In this document: one piece after another, positions 3,301-14,228 of the stretch
Layout of the letters: each line of letters begins with the position of its first letter
Position numbering within the stretch: position 1 is the stretch's first letter
DNA from: a virus
Reading direction: 5' to 3' (one strand)
Length of the DNA stretch: 33,394 nucleotides
Virus record (IMG/VR): IMGVR_UViG_3300006310_000002
Location: 1 to 33,394 of that record
The notes under the pieces: generated by a model
The model's database searches: none
Seen by the model: only the letters and a program-made list of their open reading frames with translations
Told to the model about the DNA's origin: nothing
Position numbers and translations under genes: made by a program

Positions 3301-3595
3301 AATAAATATAAAAGCTAAAAGAGAAATTGACAAGTATCCTCTTGTTGAGGTCCATTGGTATGATATTGTTTCAGATTCCAATTGGCAAAGTATCTCAGCT
3401 TGTCAGAAAGCAAGGCTTCCTCCTTGTGTAACTAAAGGACATCTACTCTCACAAAAGAAAGGTTTAACAAGGATTTTTGGTGATTACTCCCTATCAGAAA
3501 AGGAAGAAGGGTCTATAGATGAGATTGCAAATACGACTTTAATACCTACATCTGTTATTATAGAAATCAAAAAGATTGTTGACAAACGACATTAA
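3281..3595 (+). CDS. Conserved-type small phage protein, unknown function (GTG start)
   Basis: This 104-residue protein starts with GTG at 3281, with AGGA at 3268-3271 and a nine-base spacer in front. The middle (YPLVEVHWYDIVSDSNW, CVTKGHLLSQKKG, FGDYS, then NTTLIPTSVIIEIKK) has the look of a compact beta-rich domain that I associate with small proteins near phage structural genes. I know of no assigned role. It is the last gene of the packaging operon. The portal promoter -35 box overlaps its final codons. Confidence 0.7.
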   Translation: MKRKKIKINIKAKREIDKYPLVEVHWYDIVSDSNWQSISACQKARLPPCVTKGHLLSQKKGLTRIFGDYSLSEKEEGSIDEIANTTLIPTSVIIEIKKIVDKRH

Positions 3596-3607
3596 AAAGT
3601 GTATTAT
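3579..3607 (+). promoter_or_regulatory. Sigma70-type promoter before the portal gene
   Basis: TTGACA at 3579-3584 (perfect) and TATTAT at 3602-3607 are spaced by 17 bases. The -35 box lies inside the end of the upstream gene. The expected start near 3614 gives a leader of about 32 bases with a purine-rich AAAGGTTAGGA before the portal ATG at 3646. Confidence 0.75.
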
Positions 3608-3645: not shown

Positions 3646-5820
3646 ATGGCTTTACTACCTGGAGCTGAAAGAAATAAGCTTCTTATGGAACAAGAGGATG
3701 ACGTTGCTCAAGAAGTAACTGCTCTTGTTGAATCAGTTAATAAAAAATTTCAAACTTGTAAAGATTCTAGAGGTGATGATGAGAATAGATGGTTACAATC
3801 TTATCATAACTATCGTGGTAAATATTATAAAGATATTCATTTTACCCAACATGAAAAATCTAGAGTCTTTGTTAAAGTTACTAAGACTAAAGTATTAGCA
3901 GCTTATGGACAAATAATTGATGTACTTTTTGGAACAGGTAAGTTTCCATTAGTTATTCAAGAAACAAAAGTTCCAGAAGGTATTGCTGAATACGCACATA
4001 TGAATCCCCTTAAAGAACAAACAGGGGATGCAAATTTAGAACCAACTCCAAGTGTTGAAGGAAATTTAGAATATATTCCTGGTCAACCTATGAGTCCTAG
4101 TTCTAACTTAGGATTTCCTGGTGATGGAAAACCTTTAGCAAAAGGAGCTACCTTTGATTCTTTAAGTGAAAACTTTTTAGGTGGATTAACACCTGAATTA
4201 GAAAAAGCAGAATTAACAGAAGGACCTGCACATCTTCCAGAATTTCCTCAAATCAAACCTGCACAAATCGCTGCAAGAAGATTAGAAAAATTAATACACG
4301 ACCAGTTAGATGAATCTAATGGTAATATTACTTTGCGTAATTCTATTTTTGAATCTTGTTTATTAGGAACAGGAATTATAAAAGGTCCATTTACATATAA
4401 TAAAACAGTACATAAATATTCTGCAAGTGGTAATGGAAATGCAAGAGACTATAATCCTAATTTTGTTAAAGTTCCACGAATAGAATTTGTAAGTATATGG
4501 GATATGTACCCAGACCCTAATGCAAGAAATATGGATGAATGTGAATTTGTTATTCAAAGACACAGACTTAATAGACATCAATTTTTAGATTTAATTAACA
4601 GACCTTATTTCAGTAAAGAAAAAATTGAAGAATGTATAGCTATGGGTCCTGCTTATGAGAGATTATATTGGGAAACAAATATAGATTTAGAAGGAGGTTT
4701 TTCTTCAGATTTAGAAAATAATAGATATGAAGTTCTAGAATATTGGGGAACTATGGATGCTATGAGTGCTAGAGAAGAAGGATTAGCAATAGATGAATCT
4801 ATAGAAGATGCAACTGAAGTACAAGTTAATGTATGGATATGTAAAAATAAAGTAATTAGAATTGTTGAAAATCCATTTAAACCTTTTAGAATTCCTTATC
4901 AATCTTTTGCTTATGAAAAAAATCCATATAACTTTTTTGGAATAGGTGTTCCAGAAAATATGGATGATGCTCAACAAGTTATGAATGGTCATGCAAGAAT
5001 GGCAATTGATAATTTGGCATTAGCTGGAAATTTAGTTTTTGATATAGATGAATCTGCTTTAGTTAATAATCAAAACATGGAAGTTTACCCTGGTAAAATA
5101 TTTAAAAGACAGGCTGGAGTTCCAGGTCAAGCAATTTATGGAATTAAGTTTCCAAATACTGCTACAGAAAATATGCAGATGTTTGACAAGTTTAGACAAC
5201 TTGCAGATGAATCAACAGGAATACCATCATACTCACATGGACAAACAGGTGTTCAAAGTATGACAAGAACAGCATCAGGTATGTCAATGCTTATGGGTGC
5301 TGCTTCTTTAAATATTAAAACAGTTATTAAAAATATTGATGACCAATTAATTAAACCTTTAGGAGAATCTATGTTCCAATGGAATATGCAATTCTATGAA
5401 GGTGATTTACCAATCGTAGGAGATTTAGAAATTAGGGCAACAGGAAGTTCTAGTTTGATGAGAAAAGAAGTTAGGTCTCAAAGATTAACCATGTTCTTAC
5501 AAACTATACAAAATCCTGCAATTGCTCCATTCGTTAGAGTCTCAGAAGTTATTAAAGAGTTAGCATACTCTTTAGATTTAAACCCTGAAGAAATAATTAA
5601 TTCTAAAGATGAAGCAGAAATTTATGCTAAAATAATAGGATATCAAAATGCTAACAAAGCAAATGGCAGCCAAGCTGTCATCCCTGGTCAACAGCCAGGA
5701 ATGGAAGAACCTGGAGGAATACCTGAACAGAGTGCAGGACCAAACGACACAGGAAATGGCGAAGGCACAGAACCAGCAGCTACTCCACCAATGCCAGGGG
5801 AGATGGAATTTACTGGATAG
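3646..5820 (+). CDS. Portal (head-to-tail connector) protein
   Basis: This 724-residue protein should form the ring at one capsid vertex through which DNA is packaged and ejected. Its size, its position after terminase and before scaffold and capsid, and its sequence match podovirus-type portals: an opening helix with DDENRWLQSYHNYRGKYY, then a mixed core with LLGTGIIKGPF and a conserved-looking WDMYPDPNARNMDECEFVIQ, then NIDDQLIKPLGESMFQWN near the stem region. The last about 57 residues (from about 668) are a Pro/Gly-rich, apparently disordered tail. That tail is encoded over another gene in a second frame, which probably dictates its odd composition and the local rise in GC. Confidence 0.88.
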   Translation: MALLPGAERNKLLMEQEDDVAQEVTALVESVNKKFQTCKDSRGDDENRWLQSYHNYRGKYYKDIHFTQHEKSRVFVKVTKTKVLAAYGQIIDVLFGTGKFPLVIQETKVPEGIAEYAHMNPLKEQTGDANLEPTPSVEGNLEYIPGQPMSPSSNLGFPGDGKPLAKGATFDSLSENFLGGLTPELEKAELTEGPAHLPEFPQIKPAQIAARRLEKLIHDQLDESNGNITLRNSIFESCLLGTGIIKGPFTYNKTVHKYSASGNGNARDYNPNFVKVPRIEFVSIWDMYPDPNARNMDECEFVIQRHRLNRHQFLDLINRPYFSKEKIEECIAMGPAYERLYWETNIDLEGGFSSDLENNRYEVLEYWGTMDAMSAREEGLAIDESIEDATEVQVNVWICKNKVIRIVENPFKPFRIPYQSFAYEKNPYNFFGIGVPENMDDAQQVMNGHARMAIDNLALAGNLVFDIDESALVNNQNMEVYPGKIFKRQAGVPGQAIYGIKFPNTATENMQMFDKFRQLADESTGIPSYSHGQTGVQSMTRTASGMSMLMGAASLNIKTVIKNIDDQLIKPLGESMFQWNMQFYEGDLPIVGDLEIRATGSSSLMRKEVRSQRLTMFLQTIQNPAIAPFVRVSEVIKELAYSLDLNPEEIINSKDEAEIYAKIIGYQNANKANGSQAVIPGQQPGMEEPGGIPEQSAGPNDTGNGEGTEPAATPPMPGEMEFTG

Positions 5821-5872
5821 ATTAAAGAATCTACCTAGACAAGTAAATGATTTAAAAAATAGTGTTGACTAA
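5648..5872 (+). CDS. Small helical protein encoded in an alternate frame over the portal tail
   Basis: This 74-residue gene overlaps the last 173 bases of the portal gene in another frame and runs 52 bases beyond its stop. I consider it real. An AGGA at 5637-5640 lies seven bases before the ATG. The product is a well-ordered helical sequence (NSQEWKNLEEYLNRVQDQ, then LLHQCQGRWNLLDRLKNLP) like small post-portal proteins of other phages. It continues sensibly past the portal stop, and the overlapped DNA is unusually GC-rich for this genome. CTG leucine codons are common in its overlapped part although TTA dominates elsewhere. Met6 (5663) is a second possible start. The function is unknown. Confidence 0.8.
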   Translation: MLTKQMAAKLSSLVNSQEWKNLEEYLNRVQDQTTQEMAKAQNQQLLHQCQGRWNLLDRLKNLPRQVNDLKNSVD

Positions 5873-5893
5873 ACACTTTTAAATCGTTATAAT
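5865..5893 (+). promoter_or_regulatory. Sigma70-type promoter before the 5912 gene
   Basis: TTGACT at 5865-5870 and TATAAT at 5888-5893 are spaced by 17 bases. The -35 box overlaps the last codons of the small gene over the portal tail. Transcription would start near 5900, leaving a leader of about 12 bases that carries AAGGA at 5900-5904 before the ATG at 5912. Confidence 0.75.
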
Positions 5894-5911: not shown

Positions 5912-6889
5912 ATGGGAAAGAAACTTGTTAACATGGCTACAGGTGGATTAATGTCTCTACCACCTTATATCAAAGCTTTAGATAAAGAAGATGAAGGTAT
6001 TACACCTTATGATGTAAATACTCCTGAATCTGCTAGAGCAGGTTTACCTCAAAGAGGTTTATCTAAATCTAGAACTAGATATTCAAAAGGTGATGGTGTT
6101 AAACCTTTAGACCCTGATGAGATTCCTATTTTAGAAGAACATGAATTAGAAAAAGGTGATATAGCTAAATTAAATAAAATAGAAACTAAAGAATATAAAA
6201 CTTTGAAAAAAGGAAAAGAATTAGATTTAAATACTCCTGAACAAAATAAAAAATTAAAAAAATTAGAACAAAAGAAAAATAAAGCAGCTCTTGGTGGTTA
6301 CATGGATAATTTTCAAATTGCTGAAGAAGAACCTTTATCTAGACAAAAATATTCAATAGGTGGAAGAACAGCTCTTGAAGAAAAATATGATAGACGAAGA
6401 GACTATAGAGCTTTTCAAGAAGGTGATTTAGTAGAAGAAGAAATTGTTGAAGAACCTTTAATGGCTCCAGTAGGAATGGAAGAACCTTTAATTGGAGATG
6501 AAATTGCTGCTGATGATTTAGCTATGGAAGAAGATGTAGCTATGGAAGATGCAGAAAGTGTTTTAGATACTTCAATGTTAAGTGAAGAAGAAGAAGTAGT
6601 CGTGGATGCTGCTATAGAAATGTATCCAGAATTAGAAGCCATTTTACCAAAAATGGTTGCAACAGAATTTACAGAAGATGAATTAGTAGAAGGACCTGGA
6701 ACAGGAACTTCAGATTCAATCCCAGCATTATTGTCAGATGGCGAATTTGTATTTACAGCAAAAGCTGTTAAAAATATCGGCATTGATAAATTAAGAAAAA
6801 TGATGGCACAAGCTGAAGAAGCTTATGATGCTGGTATGGTTAATCAAGAAGAAACTGCAGAACTTGCAGTAGATGAAACCATAGTATAA
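5912..6889 (+). CDS. Acidic virion-type protein with GTGTSDSIPALLSDGEF motif
   Basis: This 325-residue protein sits between portal and scaffold. The N-terminal half is Lys/Glu-rich and the middle (about 165-255) is extremely acidic. Residues about 261-290 read GPGTGTSDSIPALLSDGEFV and then FTAKAVKNIG. This SDSIPA.LSDGEFV motif recurs near the end of many phage virion and tail proteins. I do not know its biochemical role. Placement beside portal and scaffold suggests a head or head-tail protein. It has its own promoter and Shine-Dalgarno site. A reverse-strand frame inside it is only a shadow of its Glu codons. Confidence 0.75.
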   Translation: MGKKLVNMATGGLMSLPPYIKALDKEDEGITPYDVNTPESARAGLPQRGLSKSRTRYSKGDGVKPLDPDEIPILEEHELEKGDIAKLNKIETKEYKTLKKGKELDLNTPEQNKKLKKLEQKKNKAALGGYMDNFQIAEEEPLSRQKYSIGGRTALEEKYDRRRDYRAFQEGDLVEEEIVEEPLMAPVGMEEPLIGDEIAADDLAMEEDVAMEDAESVLDTSMLSEEEEVVVDAAIEMYPELEAILPKMVATEFTEDELVEGPGTGTSDSIPALLSDGEFVFTAKAVKNIGIDKLRKMMAQAEEAYDAGMVNQEETAELAVDETIV

Positions 6890-9357: not shown

Positions 9358-10104
9358 ATGGCAAAGACATATTTATCACTTACTAATGAATTATTAGTAG
9401 AACTTAATGAACCAGAACTTTCAGCAGTTGCTGATGGAGTAGGAGTACAAAAACAAGTTGCTAACTGTGTAAATAGAGCTTACTCTGATATAGTAGATGC
9501 TGTAGATGATTGGTCTTGGTTAAGTGCTGGTAATCCTGATGACCCTTATTATGGTAATACTACTGTTCAAACAGTTATTGGACAAAGATGGTATTTAGCA
9601 AAAGCTTTATCTCCAGATGTAGATGGAGATTTTGATTCAGTAAATTGGGATATGTTTACTCTTGTAGATACTGCTTCTCCTTATACAATTAATAAATTAG
9701 CTTTTACAACTTTAACAGTTTGGAGAACTAATTATGCAAAATCAGAAGAAGCTTCTGCTAGAACTTCTGAATATGCAGTACCATTAAGAGTTATAAGAAG
9801 TTCTGATGGTAGAAGATTTGGATTATCTCCAATACCTGATAAAGTTTATAATATACATTTCTTTGCATATAATAGACCAACTGCTTTATCTGCAGATACA
9901 GATACAGTTGCCTTTCCAGAACAATACAAAACAGTTTTATTAGCAAGAGCTAGATATTATATTTATCAATTTAAAGATAATATAGCTCAAGCACAATTAG
10001 CATTAGACGAATACAAAAAAGGTTTACAATCTATGGCTGATAATTTAAATTCACCACAACCACAATATATGTCGGATGTAAGATTTACTTATTTGTTACC
10101 ATAA
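9358..10104 (+). CDS. Head-tail adaptor / tail tubular protein A-like
   Basis: This 248-residue protein is in the place of T7 gp11 (tail tubular protein A), between capsid and the large tube protein. It starts with a helical MAKTYLSLTNELLVELNEPE, then VANCVNRAYSDIVDAVDDWSW, as in the adaptor family. A beta-rich middle has VPLRVIRSSDGRRFGLSPIP, and a C-terminal helix (LLARARYYIYQFKDN...) follows. Proteins of this kind form the ring under the portal. T7 gp11 is somewhat shorter (about 196 residues). There is no obvious Shine-Dalgarno site and the start lies two bases after the previous stop, so coupling is likely. Confidence 0.75.
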   Translation: MAKTYLSLTNELLVELNEPELSAVADGVGVQKQVANCVNRAYSDIVDAVDDWSWLSAGNPDDPYYGNTTVQTVIGQRWYLAKALSPDVDGDFDSVNWDMFTLVDTASPYTINKLAFTTLTVWRTNYAKSEEASARTSEYAVPLRVIRSSDGRRFGLSPIPDKVYNIHFFAYNRPTALSADTDTVAFPEQYKTVLLARARYYIYQFKDNIAQAQLALDEYKKGLQSMADNLNSPQPQYMSDVRFTYLLP

Positions 10105-13852: not shown

Positions 13853-13881
13853 TTGACAATATGGCAAAAAAATGGTATAAT
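13853..13881 (+). promoter_or_regulatory. Perfect consensus sigma70 promoter
   Basis: TTGACA at 13853-13858 and TATAAT at 13876-13881 both match the consensus perfectly with 17 bases between. It sits in the 45-base gap after the 11925 fibre gene. The expected start near 13888 is only about five bases from the ATG at 13893, so the TTAGGA at 13881-13886 would not be in the message. Confidence 0.82.
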
Positions 13882-13892
13882 TAGGATAATAA

Positions 13893-14228
13893 ATGGCTCA
13901 AAATTTTCAAAGAACATTAAAAAGAAATATCACTCTCTCTGGTTCTCCTACAGAACTAAGAGCAGCTACTACAACAAATGATGCAATTATAGGTGTTAGA
14001 TGTACTAATACTTCTGGTGCATCTGTTGACGTTTCTGTCTATGTAAAAAATACTTCAACAAACTATTTTATTATTAAAGCAGCTCCCATCCCTACAGGTG
14101 GAAGTTTGGAATTAATTGATGGTGGTTCAAAAGTTGTATTACAAACTGGAGATTCAGTTGAAGCTTATGCTTCAGCAGCTACTTCAGTTGATATTATTTT
14201 AAGTGTTGTTGATTCAATTAGTACATAA
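13893..14228 (+). CDS. Small beta-sandwich virion protein
   Basis: This 111-residue protein has no charged helix and alternates beta strands (AAPIPTGGSLELIDGGSKVV, LQTGDSVEAYASAATSVDII). This is a pattern I associate with small virion or tail-associated proteins found beside fibre genes. It is preceded by its own perfect promoter. It could be a fibre tip, decoration or adaptor protein. The exact function is unknown. Confidence 0.72.
   Translation: MAQNFQRTLKRNITLSGSPTELRAATTTNDAIIGVRCTNTSGASVDVSVYVKNTSTNYFIIKAAPIPTGGSLELIDGGSKVVLQTGDSVEAYASAATSVDIILSVVDSIST

Follow-up and report, generated by a model that had tools for sequence, protein, structure and literature searches.

A second reading frame in the portal tail and its signals

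The window, that is, the entire 33,394-base virus fragment analysed here, contains a structural module of the HMO-2011 type, with genes for large terminase, portal, coat and adaptor; its closest named phages are the Pelagibacter phages HTVC104P and HTVC103P, which are 83% identical to it in DNA around the end of the portal gene. The portal gene (3646–5820, + strand) encodes a 724-aa protein with matches to PHROG 332/1216 and Pfam SU10_portal, and from about residue 668 on this protein has a Pro/Gly-rich tail that shares its DNA with a small gene embedded in the +1 frame (5648–5872, + strand). As an earlier note on this DNA had described, the small frame spans 74 residues, runs across the last 173 bases of the portal gene (5648–5820, + strand, readable as coding sequence in both frames) and continues past the portal stop, which it exceeds by 52 nt; 77% of it lies inside the portal gene. 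The GC content rises from about 0.31 to 0.455 at 5600–5799, in agreement with the compositional shift noted for the overlap. The change in codon use reported with it is best read as codon-position constraint passing to the other frame.

The AGGA that had been placed seven bases before the ATG is found at 5637–5640 (+ strand), where this Shine-Dalgarno sequence falls on the portal codons ATA GGA. These codons show no synonymous variation among 58 distinct sequences, yet elsewhere in these portals ATA makes up ~30% of Ile codons and GGA ~38% of Gly codons. Ribosomes would start inside the portal coding sequence at this AGGA/ATG and would read a 74-residue helical protein from the portal mRNA, past the portal stop. 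The probable source of an mRNA carrying both the portal and the small gene is a sigma-70 type promoter upstream of the portal gene (TTGACA-17-TATTAT, 3579–3607, + strand, 11/12 match).

Another sigma-70 type promoter (TTGACT-17-TATAAT, 5865–5893, + strand, 11/12 match) forms a third layer at this locus, with its −35 box on the last codons (Val-Asp) and the stop of the small gene. Such a promoter is present at the small-gene end in all 111 window-clade loci (97 with a perfect −10 box), and in 55 of the 111 the −35 box lies on the C-terminal Val-Asp codons at the window's position; none was found in 888 portal-internal control pieces, and at the small-gene end it is absent from other clades. Of the conserved C-terminus, the Ser-Val-Asp part is explained by this −35 box and not by the protein. 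The window has further strong promoters of the same form, some of them shortly before the portal gene and the gene at 13893, so these are probably real host-type promoters. The one before the 13893 gene is a perfect consensus (TTGACA-17-TATAAT, 13853–13881), and others are located at 381, 3579 and 11051. The 5865–5893 promoter, at the small gene's 3′ end, would start another transcript for the downstream structural genes and presumably drives the next gene (5912–6889, + strand, 325 aa). The C-terminal 50–60 residues of the product of that gene (GPGTGTSDSIPALLSDGEFV...) match a stretch that is common to an endolysin family and numerous tape measure proteins, here found within a podovirus-type module. 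About 250 nt would carry two proteins and a promoter.

Conservation and selection in the overlap

The window portal and those of HTVC033P, HTVC115P and HMO-2011 were used for scans that yielded 331 usable loci, and the small gene was located in 327 of them. Among the other four, one (L020) has a portal frame that is broken early, and in three (L284, L289 and L299) the sequence ends within 131 bases of the portal stop, which cuts off the small gene; no locus with a sufficiently long contig had two copies or none. The gene is present as a single copy in each of the 327 loci, deeply embedded in 231 and downstream or slightly overlapping in 96. The deep-overlap loci have a portal overlap of 173–224 nt, and in 231 of 231 the small frame is intact, with no internal stop, and starts with ATG.

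The +1 frame might be open as a non-coding by-product of portal-tail composition in closely related sequences, and an open frame by itself is in fact unremarkable in the window, since 63% of synonymous recodings of its portal tail keep this frame open; the relatives, moreover, are not independent. Conservation across relatives nevertheless exceeds chance. In five of them, synonymous recoding left the +1 frame open in 4–10% of cases for four and in 65% for the fifth. The by-product explanation is also opposed by the conservation of the sequence and of its start, by its homology to separate genes, and by codon-position variability and dN/dS patterns that point to the small frame; we regard it as extremely improbable. 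Variability at portal codon positions 1/2/3 among the 58 distinct window-clade sequences is 0.09/0.06/0.27 upstream of the small ATG and about 0.30/0.2–0.28/0.13 past it. The pattern flips at this ATG, and the quiet position is the second position of the small frame.

Selection was estimated by a site-class count (NN, NS, SN, SS), using our own implementation modelled on published overlapping-gene methods. The first count gave a small-frame dNN/dNS of 0.31 (0.22–0.44) in the overlap and of 0.68–0.72 upstream, where the interval includes 1; for the same two regions, the portal-frame dNN/dSN was 0.99 and about 0.1. When the count was repeated per clade, the window clade had a small-frame dNN/dNS of 0.33 (95% 0.23–0.46) in the overlap and 0.73 upstream, with a portal-frame dNN/dSN of 1.01 and 0.11, respectively. 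Purifying selection on the small frame, with the portal frame near neutral, is strongly supported in the window-clade overlap, and the pattern is repeated clearly in the 033P sister clade (small frame 0.26 and portal frame 0.49 in the overlap, 0.82 and 0.08 upstream) and weakly in the 115P clade. The last of these (small frame 0.35 and portal frame 0.72 in the overlap) adds little, because its small-frame upstream control is 0.45 (0.30–0.67) and comprises only 36 pairs.

The substitution patterns in the two frames, like the codon-position flip, place the constraint mainly on the small frame, as the earlier note had anticipated. Its expectation of a low-complexity Pro/Gly portal tail beneath a constrained second frame needs refinement: the tail is relaxed but not free, since protein-level conservation over the whole deep-overlap set is 49% in each frame and since the Gly/Pro motif is kept across clades whether the small gene lies beneath it or not. 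Judged by these comparisons of sequence, the small ORF is almost certainly coding.

Instead of a separate protein, a frameshift could give an alternative portal with a helical C-terminus in place of the Pro/Gly tail, and the overlap of the two frames and the continuity of the portal core up to the site agree with this. An in-frame TAG just before the small gene (5636–5638, + strand), which shares bases with the Shine-Dalgarno sequence, leaves only 9 nt, from TAG to ATG, for any shift into the small frame. The adjoining TAG, the ATG retained in 231 of 231 loci, a Shine-Dalgarno sequence without synonymous variation, and relatives in which this protein has an ORF and a start of its own all oppose such a shift, and no slippery site was noted; we consider it very improbable.

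A post-portal protein family and the history of its overlap

The resemblance to small post-portal proteins of other phages that had been suggested for the product is borne out by a profile built from embedded copies only, which matches every one of the 96 copies that are separate or overlap only slightly, at 17.9–56.4 bits, with controls at no more than 9.7 bits (1,920 shuffles) and 8.3 bits (maximum of 222 other ORFs). An unrestricted search of the window protein against 50,697 phage records matched eight, all at the portal end or directly after it, and a 13-sequence family alignment contains an invariant Gln-Gly. Homologues are found in the named phages HMO-2011, CRP-1, RHph_N3_13, CHOED and Slicky01, and the family extends over phages of SAR11, SAR116, roseobacters, Rhizobium, Vibrio, Aeromonas and Pseudoalteromonas. 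Besides sequence homology, the window copy shares with the family its length (74 aa, against about 60–80 aa), its place at the portal 3′ end, its strand and its single copy. It is not a separate gene downstream of the portal stop, as family members otherwise are, but the embedded position is a difference from the family and no bar to homology. At the level of sequence homology, these results show that the small ORF is an embedded member of a post-portal family of about 60–80 residues (HMO-2011 gp50/CHOED_090 type).

AlphaFold2 predicts four helices for the window protein with a mean pLDDT of 94, giving the embedded member an all-helical fold and agreeing with the helical product originally proposed. 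The top four matches in a BFVD fold search are 70–76-aa phage proteins without known function (probability 0.99–1.00); two of them have the same lengths as the Rhizobium and CHOED proteins and, from this, appear to be those family members. No function match was obtained in Pfam, PHROG, NCBIfam or by PDB sequence or PDB fold, and no significant match to a solved structure by PDB sequence and fold. Weak Pfam matches (NEW1_HB, SAT and others) were far below the cut-off and were rejected.

The nearest annotated counterpart is HMO-2011 gp50 (AFV50589, hypothetical), which, with the matching roseophage CRP genes, encodes a homologous small helical-type protein after an HMO-2011-type portal, as in the window. 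The portal overlap is about 74 nt in HMO-2011 and 1–104 nt in the relatives measured, in contrast to 173–224 nt in the deep-overlap clade, and the HMO-2011 gene is annotated whereas the copies in the pelagiphages checked are not. HTVC104P, HTVC115P and HTVC033P have no annotated coding feature at the small-gene site, and the match in HTVC103P is covered by the portal annotation only. The gp50 annotation in HMO-2011 begins at 2540; an ATG 39 nt earlier, at 2501, gives a full-length member (2501–2716) with the 74-nt portal overlap. The gene is also present yet unannotated in CRP-1 (L086), CRP-345 (L090) and Aeromonas phage 1233 (L100), and in ctYwJ313 (L089) it is annotated from an internal start, adjoining an unrelated short ORF. 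In HTVC115P the portal is followed by gp73 (3773–3910), a very basic 45-aa peptide rich in Lys, Gly and Met that is unrelated to the small gene. Further homologues are CHOED_090 of a Vibrio phage (17.9 bits by profile), WGH49988 of the Pseudoalteromonas phage Slicky01 (46.5 bits) and EVB79_104 of a Rhizobium phage (23.9 bits), each present as one copy directly after the portal. All three are hypothetical, separate genes with little or no portal overlap, unlike the embedded window copy; in CHOED and Slicky01 the small gene follows the portal and is set apart from the coat gene by one gene.

The locus resembles overprinted viral genes in general in that one stretch yields two proteins, with the constraint mostly in one frame. 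It differs in that homologues of the more constrained frame also exist where there is no overlap, which makes the small gene more than just a young novelty restricted to the embedded clade. A search of the literature found nothing on this portal/small-gene overlap. In a portal-core tree rooted on phages with separate genes (Slicky01, CHOED and Aeromonas 1233), deep overlap, in which the portal frame covers most of the small gene, is confined to one clade (support 100) that includes HTVC033P, HTVC115P and the window, and its sister clade (the Rhizobium phage, the CRP phages and HMO-2011) has overlaps of 1 to 104 nt. Nested within the deep-overlap clade are three environmental contigs, L217, L222 and L244 (support 100), whose small gene is separate and downstream, which indicates that embedding was undone at least once. 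Similarity between L244 and its embedded sister L212 drops from about 0.8–0.9 to about 0.5 at the start of the overlap.

The tree and the portal tail point in different directions with respect to origin. Tree parsimony favours a separate ancestor of the small gene. An old overlap is favoured by the tail peptide common to HTVC033P and HMO-2011, which is nearly identical in the two (DPSGAGGGNIGTGDVPMPGEAGFSA / DPTGAGGGNIGTGQVPVPGEQGFSA) although the small gene lies beneath it in the former and after it in the latter. L217, with its downstream copy, keeps the portal tail motif GNIGTG..P.PGE..F, and the two frames have compatible motifs, small-frame Tyr-Arg-x-Gln-Gly-Lys corresponding to portal-frame x-Pro-x-Pro-Gly-Glu. 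The small gene could have been born by overprinting in the portal tail and have moved out downstream later in several lineages, in which case the motif in the tail would be a fossil of the former overlap; we consider this doubtful, but if true, it would represent the birth of a gene inside a virion gene, followed by its release. Two weak tests detected no relic in the portal tails of separate-copy phages: when the tails were translated directly in +1, the real sequences averaged −0.6 bits vs −1.1 for synonymous recodings, and when the most favourable coding of the tail peptide was taken, the mean z was 0.17 vs 6.0 for embedded tails, the latter test having low power for short segments.

Possible role and significance

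We conclude, with a probability of roughly 0.8, that the small ORF is a real gene that is translated separately and belongs to the family, and for which assembly is the leading candidate role. Beside the portal and ahead of the scaffold and coat genes, phages of several host bacterial orders keep exactly one copy of the gene, and the adaptor role is already taken, which suggests, at somewhat better than even odds, a small assembly accessory. A head-tail adaptor of the SU10/T7 gp11 type was rejected for the small protein itself, which has no adaptor-domain match; that slot is filled by the gene at 9358–10104 (Pfam SU10_adaptor). The protein probably acts in head morphogenesis as a small accessory that serves portal or scaffold assembly and is produced in parallel with the portal, as its position and strict single-copy retention would suggest, and the overlap would tie its synthesis to the portal mRNA.

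The main rival for its role is a real gene with no part in assembly, encoding a small host-takeover, anti-defence or regulatory protein merely sited in the structural operon. Host-directed phage genes are usually more variable in presence and place, and the strict single copy beside the portal at 327 loci, in phages infecting hosts from SAR11 to Pseudoalteromonas, counts against such a role, which we judge unlikely in spite of the lack of a functional match in any library. Escherichia phage SU10 is distant but has its genes in the same order, and the window portal and adaptor match the Pfam SU10 families. In the corresponding slot SU10 has gp7, a 78-aa hypothetical protein between portal gp6 and scaffold gp8. 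The absence of gp7 from the published mass-spectrometry protein list (PMC4281155) also speaks for a non-assembly role, but this is offset by the failure of the gp7 sequence to match the small-protein family. As a homologue, gp7 was rejected; SU10_07 scores no better with the family profiles than shuffles do.

Phages of the HMO-2011 type rank among the most abundant viruses of the ocean, and the pelagiphages checked, like some roseophages, are annotated without a gene that all 327 loci keep. This gene represents a conserved but uncharacterised protein family of the morphogenesis module. The series of separate, slightly overlapping, embedded and again released copies provides a natural record of how overlapping genes form and dissolve, in which selection can be measured in both frames.
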